This document shows, piece by piece, positions 2-27,530 of a stretch of 64,000 nt of DNA (within the stretch, counting starts at the first letter, position 1; each line of letters begins with the position of its first letter). Source of the stretch: an uncultured Pelagibacteraceae bacterium (GTDB taxonomy: Bacteria > Pseudomonadota > Alphaproteobacteria > Pelagibacterales > Pelagibacteraceae); contig CACJBW010000003.1 in assembly GCA_902591775.1 (NCBI GenBank), forward strand, positions 1 to 64,000, written 5' to 3'. The notes under the pieces were generated by a model. It searched no databases, had not been told where the DNA came from, and saw only the letters and a list, made by a program, of their open reading frames with translations. Position numbers and translations under genes: made by a program.

Positions 2-496
2 AATAAAAGAGTTATTCAATTTACAAAATTTTTTATGGATGTGACAAGATCATTTCCAACATTAATAATAGCAATGGTGTTTTTATATTTGATGGGTAAA
101 TCATCTTTACCAGCAGTGATTGCTATTACGATACACACTGCTGGAGCACTTGGTAAATTATTTACTGAGGCTATAGAAAATTGTGATGGAAAACCTATTG
201 AAGGTTTAAGTTCTGTTGGTGCAACTTGGACACAGAAGATAAGATTTTCAGTTCTTCCCCAGGTACTACCTTTGTTTTTAAGTTATGGAATATTGAGGTT
301 AGAAATTAATGTTAGAGAATCTACAATATTAGGTTTTGTTGGTGCAGGTGGAATTGGAGAAATGTTAGCAGCTTTAATACAATGGAATTATGGAGCTGAT
401 GTTTTAGCGTGTATGTTCTTACTGGTTGGTACGATAATTGCATTAGATTATTTGTCTGCATATTGGAGACATAAATTAATTGGAGCAAATCAATGA
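2..496 (+). CDS. phnE: Phosphonate ABC transporter permease PhnE1 (5' end outside window; frame open to base 2)
   Basis: BPD permease EAA-like loop (TEAIENCDGKPIEGLSSVGAT), GFVGAGGIGEML motif typical of PhnE; directly followed by a second PhnE. Confidence 0.88.
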   Translation, partial: NKRVIQFTKFFMDVTRSFPTLIIAMVFLYLMGKSSLPAVIAITIHTAGALGKLFTEAIENCDGKPIEGLSSVGATWTQKIRFSVLPQVLPLFLSYGILRLEINVRESTILGFVGAGGIGEMLAALIQWNYGADVLACMFLLVGTIIALDYLSAYWRHKLIGANQ

Positions 497-1893
497 GTTC
501 TAGTTTAGCTATTCAAAGAGAAAATATTCGTAAATTATTTCCTGACACATTCAATCAAGCTAGAAAAAGTAGATTAAGAGGCCAAATAATTTTTTTTCTC
601 GTCTTAGTATATTTAATAGTAGGTTTTTTTACTTTAGATGTTGTTGATATCCCAAAAAAATGGAAACCACAAAATGCTGCTATGTTTGTCTTAGACACAT
701 ATGCACACAAAGATCATGTAACAATGAAATGGGAAAATCATGAGGATATTAAAATAGCTTTTGAAGGAAATTATAGAAGTGTTTATGGAAGAGATAATCT
801 TGATAAATCAATTCCAGATTGGTTTTATAAAAATTCTGATAAAGTTGGCAATGTAGTTGAGTTTAATAATAAAGGTAAGGCAATATTATACAAAGATAAA
901 GTCGAGATTGTAAATTTTCCAAAATATGAGAGAGATTTTACCATAAAATTAAATTCTAATGGTAAACCTTACCTTGTAGGTTCAGAGGATTTGGTCATAG
1001 AAGATTTAAAAGGTTTTAGAATCACAGAAAATAGAGTTGAATTTAGACCAACTTTGTATGAGAGAATTCAAGTATATCCAAAAAAAGTTGAAATTCATCG
1101 TTACAGTATCGGATGGAAATATTTTTGGTTTGATTTCTCAAGTCCGTTAGAACCATATACCTTTTTCGAAGCATTAGGTTTGACTTTTTCTAAAGAAAGA
1201 GTTGTTCCTGAAATGTCTAATTTAAAACTTTTCTTAACAGAGATTAAGGATAATGAAGCATTTATGCACGGTAGAGTTTGGTGGGCAATGCTCGAAACAA
1301 TAGTTATGGCTGTACTTGGGACAATGTTTGCTACGGTAATGGCTCTGCCCTTGTCATTCCTTGCTGCATACAACGTTACACCTATTAAAGCTCTAAGATT
1401 TACGTTAAGAAGATTATTTGATACTTTAAGAGGAATAGACTTTTTAATTTGGAGTTTAATATTTTTAAGAGCTTTTGGTCCAGGACCCTTCACTGGTATT
1501 TTTGCGATTGGTTTTACTGATACAGGTACTTTAGGTAAATTATATTCTGAAGCAATTGAAAATACTGAGAAGAAACAACAAGAAGGAGTTAAATCTACAG
1601 GGGCTAGCAAATTTCTACAACATAGATTTGGTATAATTCCTCAAATACTTCCAATTTTTGTATCTCAATCCTTATACTATTTAGAGTCAAATACTAGAGG
1701 AGCCGTAATAATAGGTGCAATGGGCGCAGGAGGAATTGGTTTACAATTTTTAGGTGCACTAGGTACTGGAAATGATTTTGAAAATGTCGCCTACATGGCA
1801 ATATTAGTTTTGGCTGTAGTAATATTTATGGATAGATTATCTGCTTGGCTTAGAAGAATATTAATTGGATCAGATCAATTAATTGTAAGGTAA
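493..1893 (+). CDS. phnE: Phosphonate ABC transporter permease PhnE2, with large extracytoplasmic insertion after TM1
   Basis: C-terminal PhnE permease domain (RGIDFLIWSLIFLRAFGPGPFTGIFAIGFTDTGTLGKLYSEAIEN, AMGAGGIGLQ); ATGA overlap with upstream phnE1. Confidence 0.88.
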   Translation: MSSSLAIQRENIRKLFPDTFNQARKSRLRGQIIFFLVLVYLIVGFFTLDVVDIPKKWKPQNAAMFVLDTYAHKDHVTMKWENHEDIKIAFEGNYRSVYGRDNLDKSIPDWFYKNSDKVGNVVEFNNKGKAILYKDKVEIVNFPKYERDFTIKLNSNGKPYLVGSEDLVIEDLKGFRITENRVEFRPTLYERIQVYPKKVEIHRYSIGWKYFWFDFSSPLEPYTFFEALGLTFSKERVVPEMSNLKLFLTEIKDNEAFMHGRVWWAMLETIVMAVLGTMFATVMALPLSFLAAYNVTPIKALRFTLRRLFDTLRGIDFLIWSLIFLRAFGPGPFTGIFAIGFTDTGTLGKLYSEAIENTEKKQQEGVKSTGASKFLQHRFGIIPQILPIFVSQSLYYLESNTRGAVIIGAMGAGGIGLQFLGALGTGNDFENVAYMAILVLAVVIFMDRLSAWLRRILIGSDQLIVR

Positions 1894-1960: not shown

Positions 1961-2389
1961 TCAATCTTTCCAGAATTTCCACCAAGGTTTTTCTTCCTTT
2001 GTTATCTCATTATTGTCAACAACAACTTTAGTTATAGATGGATCCTCTCCATCTACTAATCCTGCTCTAGCAGTTGTTTTAGCGTCTTCTAATTTTAGTT
2101 TTGCCTCAAAAACTCTGTTTTCATTACACAATTTCATGCCCTCTTTCATTAATGCTTCTGCCTCAGATGCTTTTTCGGGACTAGATCTTGAAATATCATT
2201 TTTAACAGTGGCTCTTAACATAAGTACGCCAGGGTCTTCACAATTCCCTATTTCATTTTTAAATGTATCCTCAGTATTTTGTGAATAACTACTGCCGGCT
2301 TGTTGCTCTGTTATTTTAGCATGATTGTCAGCTTGAGTAATAGAAATTGTGGATAAAGTTAATATAAATGAGATTAAGATTTTATTCAT
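1961..2389 (-). CDS. Hypothetical exported protein, 142 aa
   Basis: N-terminal signal peptide (MNKILISFILTLSTISITQA); no family recognised. Confidence 0.7.
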   Translation of the reverse strand: MNKILISFILTLSTISITQADNHAKITEQQAGSSYSQNTEDTFKNEIGNCEDPGVLMLRATVKNDISRSSPEKASEAEALMKEGMKLCNENRVFEAKLKLEDAKTTARAGLVDGEDPSITKVVVDNNEITKEEKPWWKFWKD

Positions 2390-2443: not shown

Positions 2444-3616
2444 GTGAAATATTTGTCTGCATTTTTAATAGGTATATCAGTTACCTTTTGTTACAGCAGT
2501 TGTATGTATCTGTTCTCAGCGTTGTTGCTAACTTGGGAAAATGAACTTAGTATCTCAAGGAATAATTTAACCTTTATTTATTCTCTAGGCTTAGTTGTGC
2601 ATAGTTTACTTTTACCTTTTCTAGGTAAGATTGTAGATAGAAATCTAAGTTTTCCAATGATGTGGACCAGTCCTATACTGTTAGGACTAAGTGTAATTTA
2701 TCTTTCATCAGTAGATACATATGGTGGATTTTTACTTGCTTGGATACTTGTCAGTGCAACCTCGGGTGGCTGTCTTTATACGATGCTTTTTAGTGTCATT
2801 ACTATTAATTTAAAATCAAAGGCCAAAACATCTATTGCAATAATTACTTTATTTGCTGGATTTGCAAGCACATACACATTTCCTACTGCTACTTATTTAA
2901 CAGAACAATATGACTGGAGGTTTACTGTATTTATTTTTGGAATATTAAATATATTGATTAGTTCACCAGCTAATTATTTTGGTTTCAAAAATATAATTAT
3001 AAAAGAATTTAAAAAAATTGAAAAGAAAACAGATCAAAATTCAAAGCTTAAAATAATACTTAAAGATTATAGATTTTGGTTATTTAGTTTTTCATTGTTT
3101 GTTATTGGATTTAATATTGGTGCTATTACAACTCATGTAATTCCAATGTTGCAGGAAAAAGGGATGAGTCTATCCCAAGCTGTATTGACAGCATCTCTGT
3201 TTGGACCAGGACAAGTAATAGGTAGAATTTTAGTTATGATATATGGAGGTGATAAGTCAAATTTAAAATTATTTGTAATTTGTTTTTACTCGATGGTAGT
3301 TGGAATGATATTTTTATACTTTATAAATATTAATCATTACTTAGCATTTTTATTTGTTTTATTTAATAGTTCAGCATATGGCAGTATGGCTATTTTAAAA
3401 CCTTTGGTTCAAAATGATACTTTTGGCCAAAAAAACTTTGGCAATATTCATGGTATTTTAGCTTTGCAATATATGATTGGTAGTATTGCTGGTCCATGGA
3501 TTGGTTCGTTGGTATGGAATGTAGGAGGATATGATTTGTTAATATTAGTATTTTTTGTTTTAGCAATATTTGGTAACTCGACAGCAATTTTTTTAAACAA
3601 AAAAAAGTTTATTTAA
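2444..3616 (+). CDS. MFS transporter, substrate unknown (GTG start)
   Basis: 12-TM-like hydrophobic protein of 390 aa with MFS-like GKIVDR loop. Confidence 0.75.
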   Translation: MKYLSAFLIGISVTFCYSSCMYLFSALLLTWENELSISRNNLTFIYSLGLVVHSLLLPFLGKIVDRNLSFPMMWTSPILLGLSVIYLSSVDTYGGFLLAWILVSATSGGCLYTMLFSVITINLKSKAKTSIAIITLFAGFASTYTFPTATYLTEQYDWRFTVFIFGILNILISSPANYFGFKNIIIKEFKKIEKKTDQNSKLKIILKDYRFWLFSFSLFVIGFNIGAITTHVIPMLQEKGMSLSQAVLTASLFGPGQVIGRILVMIYGGDKSNLKLFVICFYSMVVGMIFLYFININHYLAFLFVLFNSSAYGSMAILKPLVQNDTFGQKNFGNIHGILALQYMIGSIAGPWIGSLVWNVGGYDLLILVFFVLAIFGNSTAIFLNKKKFI

Positions 3617-4163
3617 AGCTTCTCTCTACGTGTTTGTAAAAATAATTTATATTTGGAATTTCTAAATTTTCAATTTTAGCAAGATCATCATATTTTCTTA
3701 ATCTAACTGCATCTTGCATAAAAGGTTGTTTAATAAATTCGTTTGCTTCCTCTTTGGAAAAACTTCCTCCTTGGACATCTAAACTTCGTTTTGAAGCAAT
3801 AGATAAAGACTCATAATAACCTTTTTCACAATAAACCAAATATCTTTTAGCCGGAACATGTCCTTTAATTAATATTGTAACATCTTCTGGAAAAAATCTA
3901 GAAAGAAAAAGAGATCCTGAATTTTCATGCTTTTTATCTATTCCTTTTTTTATGGCTTCTTTGTCATTATTAATTAAGTGACCAATATCATGGAATAGGG
4001 CTGCAGTAATAAAAAAATGGTTTTCATTATTTTTTTTTGCCAATAATGCGCATTGAATTGCATGTTCTAGTTGTGAAACTTTTTCATTTCCATATTGTTT
4101 GTCTGATCCAATTTCTTCTATAATTTTAAATAAATTGGCAATATTTGACATATTATCCATCAT
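3609..4163 (-). CDS. PhnZ-like HD-domain mixed-valence diiron oxygenase (putative C-P bond cleaving)
   Basis: HD ligands QLEH, LFHDIGH, KKHENSG, GHVPAKRYLV, RLRKYDD; Y-x-x-E element (YGNE) as in PhnZ Y24/E27; SIASKRSLDVQGG matches PhnZ phosphonate-binding region from memory. Confidence 0.82.
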   Translation of the reverse strand: MMDNMSNIANLFKIIEEIGSDKQYGNEKVSQLEHAIQCALLAKKNNENHFFITAALFHDIGHLINNDKEAIKKGIDKKHENSGSLFLSRFFPEDVTILIKGHVPAKRYLVYCEKGYYESLSIASKRSLDVQGGSFSKEEANEFIKQPFMQDAVRLRKYDDLAKIENLEIPNINYFYKHVERSFK

Positions 4164-4182: not shown

Positions 4183-4200
4183 GTTTCAGTTTTATTACAA
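4183..4200 (-). promoter_or_regulatory. Candidate Pho box TTGTAAT-AAAA-CTGAAAC
   Basis: 7-4-7 direct repeat about 20 bp upstream of the phnZ-like start. Confidence 0.5.
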
Positions 4201-4258: not shown

Positions 4259-4714
4259 ATGAAAAAACTTTTATTTGTTTGTACTGGCAATTCTCACAGA
4301 AGCATATTGGCCGAAAGTGTAGTTAATAAATTTCATAAAAATAAATTTATTGGTTACAGTGCGGGTAGCAAACCATCTGGAATAATTAATAAATATGTCA
4401 TTAAGTATCTAAATGAAAATAATTTTGATACAAAAAATCTGTCATCAAAAAACTTCAACAAATTCTTGAATGAGAAAACAACCTTTGATCAGGTATTTAC
4501 TGTATGTAACAATGCTAGTAATGAAGTTTGTCCAGTCTGGCCATCCCCTGAAAAAATAGTTCATTGGGATATTGAAGATCCTGTTTATATCATTAATGAG
4601 TTAGAGAAGAGTGATAAACCAAATAAAGAAGAGCTGATTTCAACAGAAATACATAAAACTTATTCCAATTTAGAAACAAGAATTAATGATTGGATAAAAA
4701 ATTATGAAATATAG
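4259..4714 (+). CDS. arsC: Arsenate reductase, LMW-phosphotyrosine-phosphatase fold
   Basis: N-terminal CX5R loop CTGNSHRS; FDQVFTVCNNASNEVCPVWP..HWDIEDP motif typical of ArsC-type enzymes. Confidence 0.85.
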   Translation: MKKLLFVCTGNSHRSILAESVVNKFHKNKFIGYSAGSKPSGIINKYVIKYLNENNFDTKNLSSKNFNKFLNEKTTFDQVFTVCNNASNEVCPVWPSPEKIVHWDIEDPVYIINELEKSDKPNKEELISTEIHKTYSNLETRINDWIKNYEI

Positions 4715-5381
4715 TAAGTTTTTTCTTGGAGAGTTTATTGGTAGTTGTTTCCTTGTAATGATTATTGTTGGCTCAGGAATAATGGCTGAAAATCTTACAA
4801 ATGACACAGGTATTATGCTTTTAGCCAATACTATAGCAACTGGCGCAGGACTTTTTGTGCTAATAACTGTTTTTAGTGATGTTTCAGGAGCACATTTTAA
4901 TCCATTTGTAAGTCTAGCAATGTTTCTTACAAAAAAATTAAAAGGAAATTTATTACCCACATATATATCTGCGCAAATTTTAGGTTGTTTGTTAGGTGTA
5001 GCACTTGCCAATTTCTTTTTCGAACATCAAATTTTTGAATTATCAACAAAATCAAGGGACGGAATAAATATATTTACATCTGAAATTGTAGCAACATTTG
5101 GATTGATACTGATAATTTTTGGATCATTAAAGAAAGGAAGTGTGGTAGTGGCCTCATGTGTAGCTTTTTATATCACTGCTGGTTATTGGTTTACATCATC
5201 TACATCATTTGCAAATCCTGCTGTAGCAATAGCGAGAACATTTACAGAAAGTTTTACTGGAATTAATTATATGTATACTCCAGTTTATATATTAGCAGAA
5301 ATTATCGGTGCACTTTTTGCTGTATTTGTGGCTAAAAAAATGCTTTTCAATAACAGGACAAGAGATAAAACTATCTCGTAG
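4704..5381 (+). CDS. MIP-family channel (aquaporin/aquaglyceroporin, AqpS-like)
   Basis: SGAHFNPFVSLA and SFANPAVAIAR (NPF/NPA loops); 11-bp overlap with arsC. Confidence 0.85.
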   Translation: MKYSKFFLGEFIGSCFLVMIIVGSGIMAENLTNDTGIMLLANTIATGAGLFVLITVFSDVSGAHFNPFVSLAMFLTKKLKGNLLPTYISAQILGCLLGVALANFFFEHQIFELSTKSRDGINIFTSEIVATFGLILIIFGSLKKGSVVVASCVAFYITAGYWFTSSTSFANPAVAIARTFTESFTGINYMYTPVYILAEIIGALFAVFVAKKMLFNNRTRDKTIS

Positions 5382-6220: not shown

Positions 6221-7058
6221 CTAAAACCAGTTTATATTTTCTTTGTCACAAAGTTCTTTCAGCCTTAATGGATAGTCTGTCATGATACCATCTACACCAT
6301 ACTCAATCATTTTTAACATATCGTTCTCTTCATTAACTGTCCAAACGTTCACTGGCAAATCTTCTTGATGAGAAATATCTACTAGTTTTTTTGTAATATC
6401 TTTATGGTATGGATGCAAAGCCTTTCCACCTTGTGATTTTATAATTTTTGGTAATTCATATTTTTCAAAAAAAGGTAAGTAACTCATCCATGGAGATCTA
6501 TTGTAAATTGTATTTTTAATTTTAATTCCTGCCTGTTGTTGAAAACTTAAATAAGCTCTTGAAATTTCAGGGTAAAGATTTTTGATTTCTGTCAGTGTTC
6601 TCCAATCAAATGAAGAAATGATTATTTTATTTTGTAAATTTGATTTATTTACTTCTTTCATAACAAGTTTTACCATTTCCTCTGGGGTTGGAGTTAAATT
6701 TTCCTCGTCAGGTGTAGATTTAATTTCTAAATTTATTAACAAATCTTCTTCCATATCTAGATAATTTATTTAAAGACCCAACATCAAATTTTAAAAGCTC
6801 ATCGTAACTTAAGTCAAATATTATTATATTTTCATCCGTTATCCAATTTCCCTCATTATCTTTTGTAAAACTTGGATCTAATCTAAAGTCATGTGTAATC
6901 ACAGGAATAAGATCTTTGGAAATCAAAATATCTGTTTCGTATGCATTAATATTGTTTTTAAATAAATATTTAAAACTTTCTAAAGTATTTTCAGGAAGAT
7001 CTCCTCTAGCGCCTCTATGGCCATAAATTTTAATATAATTTGGCTTTGATAAAATCAA
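6221..7058 (-). pseudogene. Glycerophosphodiester phosphodiesterase (GDPD/UgpQ), split into two ORFs (7058..6720 and 6754..6221) by frameshift plus apparent internal deletion
   Basis: ORF1 has GHRGARGDLPENTLESF..YETDILISKDLIPVITHD; ORF2 has INLEIKSTPDEEN..SFDWRTL..VWTVNEENDM..GVDGIMTDYP; overlap in different frames; PTLEEVL segment absent. Confidence 0.75.
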
Positions 7059-12157: not shown

Positions 12158-13309
12158 ATGTCTAAAATATTCGATTTATTCATAATAGGTGGCGGTATAA
12201 ACGGTGCAGGTATTGCAAGGGATGCTGCGGGTAGAGGTTTATCAGTTTGTTTAGCTGACAAAGGTGAGATTGGTGGAGCAACTTCATCCTGGTCAACGAA
12301 ATTAATACATGGTGGTCTTCGTTATTTAGAAAATTATGAATTCAAATTAGTTAGAGAATCTTTAAAAGAAAGAGAAATTGTTTATAAAATTGCTAAACAT
12401 ATTTCAAAACCCATTCCTTTTATAATTCCTTATGCAGATAAAATTCGACCAGCCTGGTTAATTAAAATTGGTTTATTTTTGTACGATAATTTAGGTGGTA
12501 AAAGTAATATACCAAAATCAAAAACATTTGATCTTAGAAAAAAATTTTCAAATATTCTTAAAGAAAAATACAAAACTGGTTTTCAATATTTTGACATACA
12601 AATTGACGATAAAAAATTAACGAAATTAAATACCAAAGATGCAAAAAGAAATAACGCTAAAATACTAGAATACAACAAAGTTAAAAAAGCTGAAATTATT
12701 GGCAATGAATGGATTATTAGTCTTGAAAATGGTGAAAAAGTAAAGTCAAAAATTTTGATTAATGCATCTGGACCGTGGATAAATGAAACCTTAAATAAAA
12801 ATATAAAAATTAAATCTAAGAAAAAAATTAGATTGGTTAAAGGAAGTCATATTATTACAAAAAAATTGTACAAAGAAAATGTTGCGTTCACATTTCAAAA
12901 TACTGATAAAAGAATAATATTTGTAATACCTTATAAAGGGAAGTTTTCTTTAATTGGAACAACTGAAGAAGAGGTGAAATCACCTGAAAATAAAGGAATA
13001 TCAAAAAAAGAAATTAGATATTTAATTAGTTCAGTAAATAATTACTTAAAAAAACAAATAACATCAAAGGACATCGTAGATACATATTCTGGGATAAGAC
13101 CTCTAATTGAAGATTTTAAAACAGCCTCAAAAGTCACAAGAGATTATGTTTTTGATTTAAAAATTATAAAAAAATTACCTTTATTGAATATTTATGGAGG
13201 AAAACTTACCACCTACAGAAAATTGTCTGAAAAAGTCCTTATTGATCTTGAAAAATTTTTACCTAAAACAAAAAAAGGTCCATGGACACACAAAAAGAAG
13301 CTTTTTTAA
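12158..13309 (+). CDS. glpD: FAD-dependent glycerol-3-phosphate dehydrogenase, short form lacking most of the C-terminal domain
   Basis: GGGINGAGIARDAAGRGLSVCLADKGEIGGATSSWSTKLIHGGLRYLE; YGGKLTTYRKLSE; ends at GPWTHKKKLF. Confidence 0.88.
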   Translation: MSKIFDLFIIGGGINGAGIARDAAGRGLSVCLADKGEIGGATSSWSTKLIHGGLRYLENYEFKLVRESLKEREIVYKIAKHISKPIPFIIPYADKIRPAWLIKIGLFLYDNLGGKSNIPKSKTFDLRKKFSNILKEKYKTGFQYFDIQIDDKKLTKLNTKDAKRNNAKILEYNKVKKAEIIGNEWIISLENGEKVKSKILINASGPWINETLNKNIKIKSKKKIRLVKGSHIITKKLYKENVAFTFQNTDKRIIFVIPYKGKFSLIGTTEEEVKSPENKGISKKEIRYLISSVNNYLKKQITSKDIVDTYSGIRPLIEDFKTASKVTRDYVFDLKIIKKLPLLNIYGGKLTTYRKLSEKVLIDLEKFLPKTKKGPWTHKKKLF

Positions 13310-13347: not shown

Positions 13348-14142
13348 TTATTTAATTCTAGTTTGAATTATTTTGATAATTTTAGGTAAATCTTTAATTG
13401 TATCTATTACATAGTGAGCGCCTACTTTCTTAAATTTATTCTTGATCTTTTTTCTAAATTTAGTTTTATCTTTAAAAGAAAGTCTATTAAATTCGACTTC
13501 TGTTTTACCAAATTCATTACCTGAAAATATAACACCCACTACCCACATCCCAGCATTTACTCCCTCTAACAATCCAGGAATAGTGTCATCAACTTTTATA
13601 CAATTTGATCCCTTGGTAATATTTAATTCAGAAAAAATTTTATATATTATTTCAGCTGAGGGTCTTCCAATTTTTGTGTATGAAGAACTATATGACACAT
13701 CAGGTATAAATCTTTGTTTTTTTAGTTCTGGCAATATAACATTTAGAATTTCTTCTGAATATCCGGTATTGATTCCTATTTTTATTTTTTTGTTTTTTAT
13801 AAAATCTAAAGTTTTTTTACTTCCTGATATAAATTTTGAATGTTTCTTAATTATTTTTTTTAATTCTGGATTAAAAAGTTTAAACAATTTATCAATATCT
13901 TTATCTGTTGGTTTTGATTTAAATTTTTTTTTCCACTGCGAATTAATTTTTCTTGTTGTTAGCAATGCTTTTATATGGGCTCGTTTTTCAATACCCATTG
14001 GTCCTATGGCTTGTTTTCGTGTAATTTTAATTCCAAACCTATCAAATAATTCTATAAGAACTTGAGATGGCGCAAGGCTTCCAAAATCTATTAATGTACC
14101 AGCTAAATCAAATACAATTCCTTCTATATTGGAATTTTTCAT
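13348..14142 (-). CDS. phnX: Phosphonoacetaldehyde hydrolase (phosphonatase)
   Basis: HAD motif FDLAGTLIDFGSLAP; PMGIEKRAHIKALL with candidate Schiff-base Lys; KIGRPSAEIIYK; VDDTIPGLLEGVNAGMWVVGV. Confidence 0.85.
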   Translation of the reverse strand: MKNSNIEGIVFDLAGTLIDFGSLAPSQVLIELFDRFGIKITRKQAIGPMGIEKRAHIKALLTTRKINSQWKKKFKSKPTDKDIDKLFKLFNPELKKIIKKHSKFISGSKKTLDFIKNKKIKIGINTGYSEEILNVILPELKKQRFIPDVSYSSSYTKIGRPSAEIIYKIFSELNITKGSNCIKVDDTIPGLLEGVNAGMWVVGVIFSGNEFGKTEVEFNRLSFKDKTKFRKKIKNKFKKVGAHYVIDTIKDLPKIIKIIQTRIK

Positions 14143-14259: not shown

Positions 14260-14277
14260 GTTACAAAAATATTACAG
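14260..14277 (-). promoter_or_regulatory. Candidate Pho box CTGTAAT-ATTT-TTGTAAC in phnX/TPR-gene divergent region
   Basis: 7-4-7 direct repeat with strong resemblance to CTGTCAT-N4-CTGTCAT. Confidence 0.6.
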
Positions 14278-14288
14278 ATTTATTACAT

Positions 14289-19155: not shown

Positions 19156-19671
19156 ATGAGAGAACTATATGTCATGAGACATGCAAAATCTAGTTGGGAA
19201 GACCCAAATTTAAGTGATTTTGAAAGACCACTAAATAAAAGAGGCATCAAAAGTGCAAAAATTATAAGTGAATTTTTTGTTAAAAAAAAATATTCTTTTG
19301 ATTATGTGCTTTTATCTTCATCAAAAAGAACAAAAAAAACTCTAAATTTAATACTGAATAAAATAAATAAACCAAAAAAAATTAAAAGTTCCTCAAAGCT
19401 TTATTTAGTTAATGAAAATGAAATTATAGGGTATATAAAAAATATCCATAAAAGGTTTAAGAAAGTATTGCTAATAAATCATGAACCTGCTCTTAAAAAT
19501 TTAGTTATAAAATTAACTAAAAATAAAGATAATAGTAATTTTAAACTATTAAATTATAAATTCCCAACTTGTGCATTTGCTAAAATAGTTTTCGATACAA
19601 ATGATTGGATAAATATTGAAGAGAAAGGAATTATTTCTGAATTTGTAAGGCCTAAAGATTTAGTTATCTAA
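19156..19671 (+). CDS. SixA-like phosphohistidine phosphatase (histidine phosphatase superfamily)
   Basis: RHG-type motif YVMRHAKSSWEDPNLSDFERPLNKRG; NHEPAL. Confidence 0.85.
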   Translation: MRELYVMRHAKSSWEDPNLSDFERPLNKRGIKSAKIISEFFVKKKYSFDYVLLSSSKRTKKTLNLILNKINKPKKIKSSSKLYLVNENEIIGYIKNIHKRFKKVLLINHEPALKNLVIKLTKNKDNSNFKLLNYKFPTCAFAKIVFDTNDWINIEEKGIISEFVRPKDLVI

Positions 19672-20343
19672 CGAATAGCCTGCAGATCTCACTGTGCGAA
19701 TTAAATTTTCTAATCCACTTACATTTAAAACTTTTCTCAATCTTCTTATGTGAACATCAACCGTTCTACTTTCTACATAAATATTTTCACCCCAAACATT
19801 ATTTAGTAATTGTTCTCTTGAATAAACTCTTTTTGGATTTTTAATAAAAAAATCTAATAATTTAAATTCTGTGGGTCCCAAAATTATTTCCTTATCATTT
19901 CTATAAACTCTTTTTGCTAATCTATCAATTTTAAGGTCTTTAAATTCCACAACATCAGTTGATGACAAAGGTTTAGCCCTTCTTAACAAAGATTTAATTC
20001 TTGCATTTAATTCTTTTTGGCTAAATGGTTTAGTGACGTAATCATCAGCTCCAGTTTCAAATGCTTTTAATTTATCTTCCTCCTCTCCTTTTGCAGTAAG
20101 CATAATAATTGGAATGTCATTATATTTTTTATCCCTTTTTAACTGTTTACATATTTCAACACCTGATAAATCTGGCAACATCCAATCTAATAAGATTAAG
20201 TCTGGCATTTTTTGTTTTATTGATTTTAAAGAGTCCTCTCCATTTTCACTTGAAGAAACCTTATGACCTTCTTTTTCTAAATTATATTTTAATAAGGTTG
20301 AAATTGGCGCCTCATCTTCTGCAATAAATATGTGTGCACTCAT
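19660..20343 (-). CDS. phoB: Phosphate regulon response regulator PhoB
   Basis: REC domain plus OmpR-type winged helix; last gene of the pst-pho cluster. Confidence 0.92.
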   Translation of the reverse strand: MSAHIFIAEDEAPISTLLKYNLEKEGHKVSSSENGEDSLKSIKQKMPDLILLDWMLPDLSGVEICKQLKRDKKYNDIPIIMLTAKGEEEDKLKAFETGADDYVTKPFSQKELNARIKSLLRRAKPLSSTDVVEFKDLKIDRLAKRVYRNDKEIILGPTEFKLLDFFIKNPKRVYSREQLLNNVWGENIYVESRTVDVHIRRLRKVLNVSGLENLIRTVRSAGYSLDN

Positions 20344-21044
20344 TACTTTGTTAATTCTGAATCGCTACCCTTAGGTCTTTCTCCCTCTAAATAATCACCT
20401 GTAACTAGATAAAATACTTGCTCAGCAATGTTGGTTGTATGATCTCCTATCCTTTCAATATTTTTAGTTACAAATAAAAGATGTGAGCCATATTCAATAT
20501 TTTCCATATTTGATTTAAGTAATGAGATGACTTCTTCCATACATTTATTTGTTAAATCATCAACTTGTTCATCACTCTCCCATACTGTTCGAGCTACATC
20601 GCTTGATCTACTTAGATAAGAGTCTAAAACAATTTTTAATTGTTTTTGAACCAAAATGCAGATTCTATTCATTGCTTCAATTAAATTATTTGGCAAATGC
20701 GTATTTATAAGTTTTGTTCTTTTTGCAATATTTTTGGCAAGATCACCTATTCTTTCTAAGTCTGAAGACATCTTTAGAGCTGCAACTGTTTCTCTAAGAT
20801 CCACAGCCATTGGTTGTCTTAAAGCAATTAAATTTACTACCTCATTCTCTATCTGAGACTCAAAATTATCTATAACTACATCTGAATTTATAACATCATC
20901 AGCAAGGTTATGATCATTTGTTGATATTGCTTTCATTGCTTTACCTAAAGCGGTTTCGCAATTTGCCCCCATTTCAACTAAATCATTGTTTAATTTTTTT
21001 AATTGGTCTTCGTAAGATTTTACTGTGTGTGGTTTTTCATTCAT
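20343..21044 (-). CDS. phoU: Phosphate signalling protein PhoU
   Basis: Two PhoU-type helical repeats (LKMSSDLERIGDLAKNIAKR; TKNIERIGDHTTNIAEQV). Confidence 0.95.
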   Translation of the reverse strand: MNEKPHTVKSYEDQLKKLNNDLVEMGANCETALGKAMKAISTNDHNLADDVINSDVVIDNFESQIENEVVNLIALRQPMAVDLRETVAALKMSSDLERIGDLAKNIAKRTKLINTHLPNNLIEAMNRICILVQKQLKIVLDSYLSRSSDVARTVWESDEQVDDLTNKCMEEVISLLKSNMENIEYGSHLLFVTKNIERIGDHTTNIAEQVFYLVTGDYLEGERPKGSDSELTK

Positions 21045-21799
21045 TATCCAAACCTTCCTGTTATGTAATCCTGCGTTTGTTGTTGAGTCGGATTCTTGAA
21101 TATCTTATCAGTAGAACCTACTTCAATCAATTTGCCAAGGTGAAAAAAACCAGTATTTTGAGAGACTCTTGCAGCTTGGGACATTGAGTGAGTAACAATT
21201 ATTATAGTATGTTCCTTTCTTAATTCATCAATTAGCTCCTCTATTTGTGCTGTCGCAATTGGATCAAGAGCTGAACATGGCTCATCCATGAGTATTACCT
21301 CTGGCTTAATTGATATTGTTCTTGCAATACAAAGTCTTTGTTGTTGTCCACCTGATAAACCAGTACCTGGTTCGTGAATTCTGTCTTTTACCTCTTCCCA
21401 AAGTGCTGCTTTTCTCAAACTCTCTTCAACAATATTATCCATTTCACTTTTAGATTGAGCTATCCCATGTATCTCAGGTCCATAAGAAATATTCTCATAA
21501 ATGGTTTTTGGAAAAGGATTTGGTTTTTGAAAAATCATTCCAACTTTTTCTCTAAGCCTTACAACATCTGTATCTTTTTGATTTATGTCATAGTCATTAA
21601 TTTTTACGACACCACTGACTTTACAAATATCGATCACATCATTCATTCTATTTAGACATCTTAAGAATGTTGATTTACCACAACCAGAAGGTCCAATAAG
21701 AGCAGTTACTTTATTTGCTTCGATATCCATATTGATATCAAATAAAGCTTGTTTCGCTCCATAATAGACATCAACATTTTTTGCTTCTATTTTATTCAT
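21044..21799 (-). CDS. pstB: Phosphate ABC transporter ATP-binding protein
   Basis: [39 protein letters not shown]. Confidence 0.96.
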
Positions 21800-21802
21800 A
21801 TT

Positions 21803-23071
21803 TTAGTTCCATTTCTTTTCAAATTTATGTCTAATTAATTGTGCTCCTAAATTCATAAAAATTAGGAAAAATAATAATACCATTATGCAAGCAGACACTT
21901 TTTCTACAAATCCTCTTTCGGCACTCTCCGCCCATATATAGATTTGAACAGGCAAGCTAGCTGCTGGATCCATAGGGGTTCCTGGTATTGTGTTAACAAA
22001 AGCAACCATTCCAATTAATATTAAAGGCGCTGTTTCACCTAATGCTTGAGCTAAGCCAATTATAGTACCTGATAAAGTTCCAGGTAAAGCCAATGGCACG
22101 GTATGATGCATCGTCGTTTGCATTCTGCTAGCTCCCATTGCTAAAGCTGCTTCTCTTATACTGGGTGGAACAGCCTTCAATGATGCTCTGGCTGCTATTA
22201 TAATTGTTGGAAGAGTCATTAATGAAAGGGTTATACCTCCAACTAAGGGTGTTGATCTAGGTAAACCAAATACAGCCAATAAAACACCTAATCCTAATAA
22301 TCCAAAAACAATTGAAGGAACTGCTGCTAGATTATTGATATTTACTTCAATAAAATCTGTAAATCTATTTTTTGGTGCAAATTCTTCTAGATAAACTGCA
22401 GCTAGTAAGGCAACAGGAAAGGCAATTGACAGACAGACAAGTATGGAAAATAATGAACCCATAAATGAGCTTGCTATTCCCGCTAACTCAGCTTCTCTAG
22501 AATCAGCATTTGTAAAAAAACTGGCATTAAATTCACTTATAACTCTTCCATCTTCATTTAATTTATCAAAAATTTTTAATTGATAATCAGATGCTCTTCT
22601 TCTATTTTCAGGTATATCTCTTGGATAATTTCCTTTAAATACTTGATCTAAGTCGTCAGAGGCTGTTAATTTTACATCAACTGTTTTTCCAAAGCTATCA
22701 GGATTGTCTAGAAGATAATATTTTAATTCTCTCTCAAAAGTAAATGCAAACATTTTTTTTAATTCCATAATTTGATCCTCACTTGCGTCTGGATCGAGAG
22801 TGATAAATGTTTCTATCCCAAACTCATAAAAGTCTGCATCATTAATATCTTCGGTTGTTGGTTTTTTATCTGGATCCAAATATAATAAATCTGCATTATA
22901 ATTGACTGGTATTACCAACCATGTTTTTTGAAATGCTGTGTAACCAGTAGAAAATATCTTTGTTAGAAATACCACTAGAAATAATAAAGCCATAAATATT
23001 GCAGCTTTACCGTAAAATTGAAATCTTTTTTCAGCTTTGTATCTTTTAATTAAACGTTCTTCTTTATTCAT
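21803..23071 (-). CDS. pstA: Phosphate ABC transporter permease PstA (with N-terminal extracytoplasmic insert)
   Basis: PstA permease core; IREAALAMGASRMQTTMHHTVPLALPG. Confidence 0.94.
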   Translation of the reverse strand: MNKEERLIKRYKAEKRFQFYGKAAIFMALLFLVVFLTKIFSTGYTAFQKTWLVIPVNYNADLLYLDPDKKPTTEDINDADFYEFGIETFITLDPDASEDQIMELKKMFAFTFERELKYYLLDNPDSFGKTVDVKLTASDDLDQVFKGNYPRDIPENRRRASDYQLKIFDKLNEDGRVISEFNASFFTNADSREAELAGIASSFMGSLFSILVCLSIAFPVALLAAVYLEEFAPKNRFTDFIEVNINNLAAVPSIVFGLLGLGVLLAVFGLPRSTPLVGGITLSLMTLPTIIIAARASLKAVPPSIREAALAMGASRMQTTMHHTVPLALPGTLSGTIIGLAQALGETAPLILIGMVAFVNTIPGTPMDPAASLPVQIYIWAESAERGFVEKVSACIMVLLFFLIFMNLGAQLIRHKFEKKWN

Positions 23072-24446
23072 ATTTCTCTCTATATTTTTTCACAACAGAT
23101 AAGGCAACAATATTTAAAACTAAAGTAACTATAAATAAACTTAATCCCAATGCAAAAGCTGCTTGGGTTTTCGGATCCCCAAATTGTTGATCACCAATTA
23201 AGATAACAACAATTTGAGCAGTTATTGTTGAAGTGGACTCTAACGGATTAAGAGTTAGGTTTGCTGCCAACCCTGATGCCATTACAACAATCATTGTTTC
23301 ACCAATAGCTCTAGAAACACCTAATAAAATAGATCCAACAATTCCAGGTAAAGCAGCTGGAAAGATTACTCTTTTTATTGTTTCAGATTTTGTTGCTCCC
23401 ATGGCATAGCTACCATCTCTAAGATTTTGAGGAACACTTGTAATTACGTCGTCACTTAAGCTTGATATAAATGGAATAATCATAATTCCCATAACACCAC
23501 CGGCTGCCAGTGCGCTTTCTGCTGACACCTCTAATCCTAATGATAATCCAAGGTCTTTTAAAAAAGGTCCAACTGTTAAAGCAGCAAAAAAACCATAAAC
23601 AACAGTTGGAATTCCTGCTAAAATTTCAATGACAGGTTTCGCATATTGTCTTAAACGTTTGCTCGCATATTCCGCCATATAAATACCACTTAACAAACCA
23701 ATTGGTATTGCAACACACATTGCAATCAAAGCTATAAAAAAGGTGCCTGCAAATATCGGAACCGCACCAAAAGTATCACTATACATTGATGGATCAAGTG
23801 CTTCACTTGCATCTCGAACAAAAGCTTTTGCAGGATACCAGTGCATTCCAAATACAAAATCAAATAGTGGGATAACTTGAAAAAATTCTATTGTTTGAAA
23901 CAAAAGGGAAAAAATAATACCAATGGTTGTTAATATCGCTGCCAGTGATGATAAAAAAAATACTCCTTTAAGAAATATTTCAACTGGTTCTCTTGTTTTA
24001 GTGTTGTTTGAAATCTTTGTATACGCATAACCTGTTGATGCAATTAATAATGATAAAACTATAACGACCTTAGACCACTTTGCTATGTCTCTAAAGTTTA
24101 AATATTTTTCTGCTGATCTTTGTAACTCTGCAGTAAGTTCTCCTGAATACTGGTTTCGAGAAAGTGATTTTACTTTTTCATAAAATAAATTCAACTCTCC
24201 TTCTAGAAGTCCTTGCGAAGAATAATCACTAAGTATAAAAAATCTTACTATGCTAGGTTCAAATATCGACCATAAAGCATACAAAAGAAAAGCAGGTGCG
24301 CCACACCATATAGCAAGATAGTATCCATAAAATTTTGGAAGAGCTGTTAACCGTTTGTTAGATTGAATTAAAATAGCTTTTTTTCTTCCAAAGAAGTAAC
24401 TGGATAAAGCTAAAAGAACGATTGTTAAAAATATTACTGAATTCAA
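23064..24446 (-). CDS. pstC: Phosphate ABC transporter permease PstC (long form)
   Basis: LRDGSYAMGATKSETIKRVIFPAALPGIVGSILLGVSRAIGETMIV. Confidence 0.94.
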   Translation of the reverse strand: MNSVIFLTIVLLALSSYFFGRKKAILIQSNKRLTALPKFYGYYLAIWCGAPAFLLYALWSIFEPSIVRFFILSDYSSQGLLEGELNLFYEKVKSLSRNQYSGELTAELQRSAEKYLNFRDIAKWSKVVIVLSLLIASTGYAYTKISNNTKTREPVEIFLKGVFFLSSLAAILTTIGIIFSLLFQTIEFFQVIPLFDFVFGMHWYPAKAFVRDASEALDPSMYSDTFGAVPIFAGTFFIALIAMCVAIPIGLLSGIYMAEYASKRLRQYAKPVIEILAGIPTVVYGFFAALTVGPFLKDLGLSLGLEVSAESALAAGGVMGIMIIPFISSLSDDVITSVPQNLRDGSYAMGATKSETIKRVIFPAALPGIVGSILLGVSRAIGETMIVVMASGLAANLTLNPLESTSTITAQIVVILIGDQQFGDPKTQAAFALGLSLFIVTLVLNIVALSVVKKYREKYE

Positions 24447-24474
24447 TTATTGGCTCCTTTAGATTTATACAAAA

Positions 24475-24503
24475 AAAAGGGCCCATTTAATAGGGCCCCT
24501 TTT
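24475..24503 (-). terminator. Strong hairpin between pstS and pstC
   Basis: AAAAGGGGCCC-TATTAAAT-GGGCCCTTTT on the minus strand followed by further Ts (one bulge). Confidence 0.75.
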
Positions 24504-24525
24504 GAGTTTATTAACAAATATTATA

Positions 24526-25560
24526 TTACTCCATTGACATTGCAGTAAGAGATTTCGAATTATCTCTAACTGTTCTGTAAGTTTCAGCATCAAGTGGAAC
24601 AAGTCCTATTTCCGCTAAGTAACCTCTTTTACCAATAGCTTTAGTTGTAGTGAATTCTTTTACAAATTCATGTAATCCTGGAATTACACCAACATGAGCT
24701 TTTTTTACGTAAAAGAATAATGGTCTAGCAACAGCATAACTATAGTCTTGGATAGATTCTAATGATGGTTGACCACCTTCTATACTTGCAGCTTGCAATT
24801 TATCTCTTGCAGCTAAAAAGTAACTAAATCCAAAGAAACCAAACATTTCTTTGTCTTCAGATAATTTTTGAATAATTAAACTATCATTCTCTCCAACTTC
24901 AATAGCAGCACCATCTTCTCTGTAAAGTTTTTGTGGTTTTTTGTATTTTTTATTTCCAGCTTCGAAACCTGCTTTGTATAATGCTTTAGCATCTTTAGGC
25001 ATACCTTTTTTCATTACTAACGAATTCCAAGCATCTCTTGTTCCGGATGTTCCTGGGGGAATCATAACTGAAATCTTTTGTTTTGGTAAACTTGGGTCTA
25101 TTTGATCCCATGTTTTGTATATGTTGTCTACTAATTTACCATCAACAACTGAGTGTTTTGCTAAAGCTTTCCAAAGTTGTTCTTTAGTGAAGTTTACTGG
25201 TTCAGCATCAACACTGTATGCTAAAGTAATACCATCGTTACCTATAATAACTTCAACTATTTCATTAACACCATTTTTTTTGCAAAGAGCTTTTTCTTTA
25301 TCTTTCATTGCTCTTGATGCATTTGTTATATCAGGGTGAGCTTCTCCTACACCTGCACAAAATAATTTTGCACCACCACCTGTACCAGTTGACTCGATTA
25401 CTGGTGTTTTAAATCCAGTTTGCCCGAATCTTTCAGCAACTATTGTTGCGTAAGGGAATACAGTAGATGATCCAACTATTTTGATTTGATCTCTTGCTTG
25501 AGCAATAGTGGCAACAGAAATGGCAACTATTGAAGCAAGGACTATAGTTAGTTTTTTCAT
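24526..25560 (-). CDS. pstS: Periplasmic phosphate-binding protein
   Basis: Signal peptide; IKIVGSSTVFPYATIVAERF; STGTGGGAKLFCAGVG; MIPPGTSGTRDAWNSLV. Confidence 0.95.
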   Translation of the reverse strand: MKKLTIVLASIVAISVATIAQARDQIKIVGSSTVFPYATIVAERFGQTGFKTPVIESTGTGGGAKLFCAGVGEAHPDITNASRAMKDKEKALCKKNGVNEIVEVIIGNDGITLAYSVDAEPVNFTKEQLWKALAKHSVVDGKLVDNIYKTWDQIDPSLPKQKISVMIPPGTSGTRDAWNSLVMKKGMPKDAKALYKAGFEAGNKKYKKPQKLYREDGAAIEVGENDSLIIQKLSEDKEMFGFFGFSYFLAARDKLQAASIEGGQPSLESIQDYSYAVARPLFFYVKKAHVGVIPGLHEFVKEFTTTKAIGKRGYLAEIGLVPLDAETYRTVRDNSKSLTAMSME

Positions 25561-25629
25561 TTTTAATATCCTTTCGTGAATTAAATTTAATTAACGACTC
25601 GCTTAATAAATTTTATTGAGGACTCTAGT

Positions 25630-25647
25630 ATTACAAATTTGTTACAG
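25630..25647 (-). promoter_or_regulatory. Pho box CTGTAAC-AAAT-TTGTAAT upstream of pstS
   Basis: 7-4-7 direct repeat 70 bp upstream of the pstS start; weaker third 11-bp repeat (ATTTAACAAAA) 5' of it. Confidence 0.7.
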
Positions 25648-25668
25648 TTTTGTTAAATAGGTAACTTT

Positions 25669-26301
25669 TTAGTTGTATTTTTTAGAGATGATTAAAGTAT
25701 CATTATCTGCAGCTAAATCTCCTCGACAACGAATTGGGCTCACATTTTCACTTAGTGCTAAGCTCTTTGTTGGTCTTAAAGTAACTTCTAGTTGTATCAT
25801 TGATATAAGGTCTTTTACTTGATTTTGATCATATTTCCATGAAGGCCAACTTGTGGGGGTAGAAAAAGTAGTAATTATATAACTTGAGGCCCTATTAAAA
25901 TTATAATTACTCTCATTTTGTTTTCTTAACAAATGATCTCTTACAGAAAAGAAAATATTTTTACATCTATGCATGTCAGACATATAATTTTCTTTTTTTA
26001 AGTTTTTGTTCATTGGGATTGATACAATCAAATCAATTGTATCTCTCCAGAATGAAGTTAAAACCTCAGTATAGATATGATCAACATTTACTTTGTCAGA
26101 TGGAAAATGTTTATTGACAGTGCTTTTCGTATTTTCTAAGTCATTTTTCATTCTAAAAATACCAATATCAAATACAGTAAGTTGTTGGTTTCTTAAAAGT
26201 GTTGTAATGTCTTTTTTATTAGAAACTTCAGAGTAAGAATTTGATATAAAATTAAAAAATAAGTAAGAAAAAATAAAAAAATTTATTATTATTTTTTTCA
26301 T
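25669..26301 (-). CDS. Hypothetical exported protein (210 aa) between phoR and pstS
   Basis: Signal peptide MKKIIINFFIFSYLFFNFISNSYS; no recognised domain. Confidence 0.75.
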   Translation of the reverse strand: MKKIIINFFIFSYLFFNFISNSYSEVSNKKDITTLLRNQQLTVFDIGIFRMKNDLENTKSTVNKHFPSDKVNVDHIYTEVLTSFWRDTIDLIVSIPMNKNLKKENYMSDMHRCKNIFFSVRDHLLRKQNESNYNFNRASSYIITTFSTPTSWPSWKYDQNQVKDLISMIQLEVTLRPTKSLALSENVSPIRCRGDLAADNDTLIISKKYN

Positions 26302-26375
26302 TTAACAACTTTATTGAAAAAATCCGTTATTTACAAATTAAATTATATTGTGAAAATTGTTAAATTATATGAAGT

Positions 26376-27530
26376 TTATAATTCACTAGGTAAATGAATG
26401 TTAATTTCGGTTCCTTTACCATTAAGATTTTTTATTTCGTAATCACCTCTATGTTGAGAAATTATATGTTTGACAATTGCAAGACCTAAACCTGTTCCAC
26501 CAACTTTCCTGCTCTCTTCAACATCTACTCTATAAAATCTTTCAGTTACCCTGTTAATTTGATCCTCAGGAATTCCAATACCTTGATCAGATACAGATAT
26601 TTTAATTCCTTTTGTTATGAGTTTCCCTTTACTTGGAGAAGCTAATATATTTATAGTTGATTTTTCTTTTGAGTATTTAATAGCATTGTCTAATAAATTA
26701 GAAAAAACTGTTATTAATTTATCTTCATCACCAATAACATCACTTACATTACCTAAATTAATTTCAAGATTAATATTTTTTTCTTTTAAGCTAGTAAAAT
26801 GAACATCTTTTACTTTTGTCAATACATTCTTCAAATTAACTGGTTTGTCAGGTCTTATATGCTCCTGGAGTTCAATTCTGCTTAATATTAATAGATCACT
26901 TATTAAATTTTCCATTCTTTTGCTTTGTGAAGAGATTATTTTAAGAAAGTTTATCTTTGCTATTTCGTCATCTTTAGCAGGACCCTCTATTGTCTCTATA
27001 GCGCCTTTAATTGAAACAAGAGGAGTTTTTAATTCATGGCTAACATTAGCAACAAAGTCAGTTCTAAATTTTTGTGCTTTTGAAATTTCAGTAAGATCTT
27101 TTAAAAATAAAACAACAGAGTCTTTTTCTGTAAAAATTACAGTTGGTCCAGGAATCACATAAATTCTGTAATACTGATATGAAGGCAAATTTATTTCTAA
27201 ATCTAAATTACTGGTTTTTTTTGAAGACTTAACTTCTCTGATTTTTTCATCTAGATTAGGATTTCTTAAAATTGTGCCGAGATGTGTATTTAAAATATTT
27301 TTACCAAATCTTTTTTCGGCACTTGGATTGGCATATTTTATAATATTTAATTTATCTAATGCTATAAATTGATCCTCTAATTCATCTAATATAAATGTTT
27401 TGCTATCATCCTTTTCATACTTTGAAATAATAATTTTATCATCAGTATTTTTTTTATTTCTGTTTGAATAAATTATTATTAGTAGAAATATAATTACACA
27501 GATTAATAGTATTTCAAAGAGGCCAATCAT
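26376..27530 (-). CDS. phoR: Phosphate regulon sensor histidine kinase
   Basis: N-terminal TM, PAS, NVSHELKTPLVSIKG, DQGIGIPEDQ, GGTGLGLAIVKHI. Confidence 0.9.
   Translation of the reverse strand: MIGLFEILLICVIIFLLIIIYSNRNKKNTDDKIIISKYEKDDSKTFILDELEDQFIALDKLNIIKYANPSAEKRFGKNILNTHLGTILRNPNLDEKIREVKSSKKTSNLDLEINLPSYQYYRIYVIPGPTVIFTEKDSVVLFLKDLTEISKAQKFRTDFVANVSHELKTPLVSIKGAIETIEGPAKDDEIAKINFLKIISSQSKRMENLISDLLILSRIELQEHIRPDKPVNLKNVLTKVKDVHFTSLKEKNINLEINLGNVSDVIGDEDKLITVFSNLLDNAIKYSKEKSTINILASPSKGKLITKGIKISVSDQGIGIPEDQINRVTERFYRVDVEESRKVGGTGLGLAIVKHIISQHRGDYEIKNLNGKGTEINIHLPSEL

Follow-up and report, generated by a model that had tools for sequence, protein, structure and literature searches.

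A PhnZ-family oxygenase gene of SAR11 bacteria, linked to the C-P lyase operon and without its known hydroxylase partners

SAR11 bacteria are common in the ocean, and those equipped with C-P lyase have been proposed as a source of methane, formed from methylphosphonate, in phosphate-poor seas. The window analyzed here, a stretch of 64,000 nucleotides whose first base is also base 1 of contig C3 in a Pelagibacteraceae genome about 70% complete, also holds a gene for an HD-domain protein resembling PhnZ. PhnZ and PhnZ1 bind a 1-hydroxyphosphonate at a mixed-valence diiron site and use O2 to convert it into phosphate and a carboxylate (PMC8177086, PMC10574752). What does such an enzyme do where the usual hydroxylase is missing from its surroundings? 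The preliminary description of this DNA offered two answers: a PhnY-type partner lying upstream of the window, or a substrate taken up already hydroxylated.

The gene in question occupies positions 3609 to 4163 and encodes 184 amino acids, exactly as first described, with the correction that it lies on the minus strand, which had been left unstated; the plus strand over the same interval contains many stops. On one side it is convergent with, and overlaps by 8 bp, a gene for a major facilitator superfamily (MFS) transporter (2444 to 3616, plus strand) whose best model is ArsK (127 bits, cut-off 400). Beyond this lie a gene for a 142-residue protein whose start resembles a signal peptide and which has no known family (1961 to 2389, minus strand; it keeps its place between the MFS gene and phnE2 in relatives), then phnE2, a phosphonate ABC permease gene (493 to 1893, plus strand; TIGR01097, 229.7 bits, over cut-off), and the 3' part of phnE1 (35 to 496, plus strand; 284 to 293 amino acids when complete in relatives). 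A weak Pho-box-like site at 2412 to 2429 goes with the gene for the 142-residue protein. On the other side, divergent from phnZ, is arsC for a thioredoxin-type arsenate reductase of the LMWP fold (4259 to 4714, plus strand), followed by a gene for an AqpS-like aquaporin of the MIP family (4704 to 5381, plus strand); the arsC and aquaporin genes of HTCC7211 have already been described (PMC6426599). The Pho-island setting noted earlier is borne out by pstSCAB, phoU, phoB and phoR at 19660 to 27530, named from reading their translations.

Because the window begins at contig base 1, inside phnE1, the upstream stretch is unreadable in the source genome, and we reconstructed it from the loci of 43 relatives. 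Reading away from phnZ, the order is MFS gene, 142-residue protein gene, phnE2, phnE1, phnD, phnC, phnF and phnGHIJ, and two loci that extend further continue with phnK, phnL, phnN, a DUF1045 protein gene and phnM. The upstream stretch in relatives is thus a complete C-P lyase operon (phnGHIJKLN, DUF1045, phnM) following phnCDE-phnF. These genes stand where the preliminary description had thought a PhnY-type partner might lie, and the C-P lyase link, which was out of its view, is the chief feature of the locus. On the opposite side of phnZ, relatives have arsC and the aquaporin gene, and then a content that varies between genomes.

Several other genes of the window deserve mention. A phosphonoacetaldehyde hydrolase gene, phnX, is found by profile match at 13348 to 14142 (minus strand), and no PhnW scores over cut-off in the source genome or in ten relatives; like phnZ, phnX thus encodes a second-step enzyme lacking its usual first step, and has its own Pho-box-like repeats. 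A glycerophosphodiester phosphodiesterase-like gene (6221 to 7058) appears as two overlapping reading frames of 177 and 112 amino acids, a split common to five relatives, and is a single gene for 307 amino acids in other genomes. GlpD (12158 to 13309) has 383 residues that match only positions 4 to 392 of a 508-position model; it is without the C-terminal part and has the same length in relatives.

As for the identity of the 184-residue protein, its best-scoring model was TIGR03276 (Phn-HD), at 203 bits, 11 bits short of the cut-off of 214.6. It reached 156 bits against the PhnZ1 model NF052439 (hydroxymethylphosphonate dioxygenase; cut-off 300) and 141 bits against the TmpB model NF049941. 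TIGR03276 is not discriminating here, because a TmpB-type homologue (L235) also scores 202 bits against it. Structures matched in the PDB were those of PhnZ (4mlm, 1.4e-28) and TmpB (6npa, 5e-27). Aligned to PhnZ, the protein has all six metal ligands, namely H34, H58, D59, H79 (H80 in PhnZ), H102 (H104) and D159 (D161), as well as the substrate and loop residues Y24, E27, K106 (K108), R107 (R109), S124 (S126), Q131 (Q133) and R156 (R158). The ligands, the tyrosine-glutamate pair and the lysine, serine and arginine contexts pointed out earlier are therefore all present; together with the glutamine, they are invariant in 43 of 43 SAR11 orthologues in an alignment with PhnZ and TmpB. The ligand pattern H..HD..H..H..D is also kept in the other aligned homologues, one ambiguous letter excepted. 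An AlphaFold model had a mean pLDDT of 41, the alignment being shallow and made of near-identical orthologues. By every sequence test made, and despite the TIGR03276 shortfall, the protein is a PhnZ-family HD oxygenase.

A phylogeny was calculated with 80 sequences. The gene and its SAR11 orthologues, hereafter clade A, are sister (support 97/91) to a homologue of another alphaproteobacterium with a phnWAY type of locus, and are separate from the clades of TmpB and PhnZ as well as from a second, oxygenase-paired SAR11 clade (clade B). We claim only the separateness of clade A, because the deeper forks are weak. Pairing with a 2-oxoglutarate oxygenase is limited to a small number of distinct clades (10 changes, versus 25 in shuffles). 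The locus of the sister sequence, of marine alphaproteobacterial type (L195, 2955 to 12508), carries arsC, a Pit-type transporter gene, phnZ, and PhnW-, PhnY-dehydrogenase- and PhnA-like genes, all labelled by reading; arsenic and phosphonate genes are again joined there.

Clade B has surroundings of its own. In L272 (3486 to 8457) and the clade B loci L205-L224, we observed genes for a beta-keto acid cleavage enzyme, a thioesterase, a TauD-type oxygenase and a choline-dehydrogenase-type protein. This SAR11 operon usually includes the clade B phnZ, which is absent from 24 of the 51 genomes retaining the TauD gene, and hints at a route for a choline-like phosphonate. A genome from another genus of the SAR11 family (G082) has a clear TmpA gene (L016, 1965 to 3110; 542 bits, cut-off 400), divergent from a clade B phnZ, and probably has a TmpA/TmpB-type pathway. 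No relative was found in viral contigs. The only phage hit, a PhnZ homologue (42%) in the Pseudomonas phage record OQ658365.1 (61100 to 61573), lies near the terminus of that record, where no gene is annotated, and is probably flanking host DNA.

To what is the clade A gene linked across genomes? Among 397 Pelagibacteraceae genomes, a close phnZ, defined by at least 90% identity, is present in 11, one of which is complete (G035, 1,456,888 bp). The C-P lyase gene phnJ is present in nine genomes, all of them among these 11 and none among the 386 non-carriers (Fisher's exact p ~9e-17, kinship uncorrected). The two carriers without phnJ are both cut short by a contig break, at phnE1 in the source genome (G000) and within the MFS gene in G166. 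Since phnJ coincides with it and arsC occurs in 215 of the 397 genomes, close phnZ tracks C-P lyase in SAR11, not arsenic resistance. The SAR11 island may have been inherited as one block, in which case the co-occurrence does not amount to many independent events; independent cases outside SAR11 therefore weigh more. In the Nostoc plasmid pNsp_b, a homologue (49% identity) sits between phnM and phnJ; on a Variovorax plasmid, another follows phnJKLM-phnCDE; and in 7 of 40 alphaproteobacterial loci the homologue adjoins phnGHIJ (chance ~5e-11). The linkage thus recurs in unrelated genomes, and these distant homologues in the C-P lyase operons of Nostoc, Variovorax and the seven other Alphaproteobacteria are likewise without a hydroxylase. 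Other partnerless homologues are found with phnX and a PbfD-type FAD oxidoreductase gene, or with phnAY or phnWAY genes.

We then have to consider the missing hydroxylase. No 2-oxoglutarate oxygenase gene occurs beside phnZ or in the adjoining Pho and C-P lyase island of the relatives' loci. The search for known partners was made with the PhnY1 and TmpA models; neither scored above its cut-off in the 11 carrier genomes, the TmpA model finding its positive control in G082. The upstream-partner idea is unsupported, and uptake of an already hydroxylated substrate is now the favoured half of the original pair. With neither an adjacent hydroxylase nor a PhnY1 or TmpA over cut-off in the genome, the label of a two-enzyme PhnY/PhnZ or TmpA/TmpB system is withheld. 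Among homologues without any other label, the ten neighbourhoods scanned contained no 2-oxoglutarate oxygenase gene and had no common theme.

The main rival, weakened by testing and now unlikely in our judgment, is that phnZ supplies the later step of a conventional PhnY/PhnZ-type pathway and that the hydroxylase gene lies at another place in the genome, an example being the TauD-type gene at the choline-dehydrogenase locus. An unlinked partner is conceivable because 8 of the 11 carriers have this TauD-type oxygenase, the orthologue of which accompanies clade B phnZ in other SAR11 genomes, and most carriers hold other 2-oxoglutarate oxygenases, general PhyH and TauD proteins being present. The enrichment of the TauD orthologue over all other genomes is marked (p ~5e-6, kinship uncorrected), and in seven of the eight carriers the clade B phnZ that usually follows it is gone, as if replaced in trans. 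However, 17 genomes retain the TauD gene but have no PhnZ from clade A or clade B, and two carriers, G140 and G262 (96% and 91% complete), have neither the TauD gene nor any TmpA-like gene. Moreover, no PhyH orthologue common to all carriers was found, and in other taxa, too, the related partnerless phnZ genes have no hydroxylase gene beside them.

The neighbouring genes suggest another rival, in which the oxygenase belongs to an arsenic module, acts on organoarsenicals, for example arsonates carrying methyl or hydroxymethyl groups, and has its control region in common with arsC-aqpS. Arsonates are indeed phosphonate analogues, and phnZ is always divergent from arsC and convergent with the ArsK-like MFS gene in loci whose contigs reach that far. 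HTCC7211 demethylates DMA by an enzyme that is not known (PMC6426599). Against this, the much wider distribution of arsC than of this phnZ, limited to 11 genomes, means that arsC does not require it; homologues outside SAR11 reside in phosphonate operons; and the phosphonate-binding residues are all retained. We consider such a role very improbable, and a shade more so its fuller version, in which hydroxylated or methylated organoarsenicals replace ordinary phosphonates as substrates, the arsC-aqpS control region is shared and the enzyme is the missing piece of arsenic demethylation in HTCC7211. Also very improbable is a generic HD phosphohydrolase: in Pfam only the general HD model fires, but the PhnZ, PhnZ1 and TmpB models give 141 to 203 bits versus 23 bits for the general HDIG model, and the YxxE loop that defines HD-domain mixed-valence diiron oxygenases (Y24/E27 in PhnZ; PMC8177086) is invariant along with the K108, S126, Q133 and R158 equivalents.

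Control of the gene was approached through its promoter. A Pho-box-like direct repeat, TTGTAATAAAACTGAAAC, lies on the minus strand at 4183 to 4200, some 20 bp ahead of where phnZ starts. Over 20 distinct promoter alleles, the block TTGTAAYAAAACTGAAACAT at this distance is invariant in 19 of 20 columns, compared to 48 of 75 for the rest of the gap. Pattern matches identify tandem Pho-box-like repeats upstream of phnX (14260 to 14288, minus strand) and of pstS (25630 to 25658, minus strand). The standard E. coli-type Pho box pattern is not enriched in the window (7 matches versus 7.2 by chance), and an A-rich form was taken post hoc from pstS and phnX instead: the pattern YTGTAAYAAAWYTGTAAY, picked after the sites were seen, has 8 matches for 0.83 expected. 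With a matrix built from pstS and phnX alone, the phnZ site has a chance of 0.002 within its gap. Because the pattern is post hoc and the E. coli one unenriched, we regard this as good but non-independent evidence for PhoB control. A Pho box is thus probable in front of phnZ, phnX and pstS, and phnZ is probably induced through it by phosphate starvation.

How does this enzyme compare to characterized ones? PhnZ of bacterium HF130_AEPn_1 (PDB 4MLM, 4N6W) is like it in the HD fold, as judged by sequence, the ligand pattern, the YxxE element and the substrate-contact residues, but has the 2-oxoglutarate hydroxylase PhnY as partner, whereas the SAR11 gene lacks such a neighbour and forms a separate branch. 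PhnZ1 of Gimesia maris has a model that the SAR11 protein matches better than that of TmpB, although under cut-off, and the carriers are without a PhnY1 over cut-off; GmPhnZ is reported to cleave hydroxymethylphosphonate as well as (R)-HAEP (PMC10574752). TmpB of Leisingera caerulea (PDB 6NPA) has the same ligand set and YxxE loop, but belongs to a well-supported separate clade whose members in our sample all adjoin TmpA. The clade B protein, from the same family and genus and about 40% identical, is paired with a TauD-type or TmpA hydroxylase, with a choline-dehydrogenase-type gene added in the TauD case. A parallel in setting is PhnHD of Achromobacter, included in TIGR03276 and likewise a partnerless HD oxygenase beside phosphonate-degradation genes (PMC11203657), except that it adjoins phosphonatase operons and the SAR11 gene a C-P lyase operon. 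The literature searched names TIGR03276/PhnHD in a single paper, for Achromobacter, and contains no description of a C-P-lyase-linked, partnerless branch of the PhnZ family, which, within that literature, is what is new here.

Taken with the directly supported features, namely family membership, conserved catalytic residues, the C-P lyase link, the absence of known partners and a conserved promoter box, the reading that we favour as reasonably probable is a stand-alone, Pho-controlled mixed-valence diiron oxygenase of the PhnZ family, without a dedicated 2-oxoglutarate hydroxylase, that cleaves imported 1-hydroxyphosphonates beside C-P lyase. We infer its catalysis, substrate, import route and PhoB control. 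Phosphonates would enter via the adjoining PhnCDE transporter. The C-P lyase next door would deal with unactivated ones such as methylphosphonate, and the PhnZ-like enzyme with those already bearing a 1-hydroxyl, most likely (R)-1-hydroxy-2-aminoethylphosphonate and/or hydroxymethylphosphonate, which it would oxidize with O2 to phosphate and glycine or formate. In PhnZ, E27 contacts the amino group of the substrate; it is kept in the SAR11 enzyme and lost in part of the partnerless group, and its retention in the alignment leans slightly towards (R)-HAEP. Hydroxymethylphosphonate has been reported from marine dissolved organic matter (PMC6581173), and the phnZ genes of phnWX and phnWAY clusters have been interpreted as serving a HAEP route (PMC8154272).

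Surveys take marine phnZ to mark organisms that use 2-aminoethylphosphonate by way of a hydroxylase partner, and Pelagibacterales account for 45% of the marine phnZ sequences (PMC9381506). The SAR11 phnZ genes fall into at least two clades that differ in their genomic partners, and one clade has no linked hydroxylase at all; the marker therefore probably misreads them. Lacking the usual hydroxylase, this SAR11 phnZ probably serves to free phosphate from phosphonates hydroxylated before uptake. If true, an oxygen-using enzyme in the same island as C-P lyase would route hydroxylated phosphonates to formate or glycine, and not to C-P lyase products.
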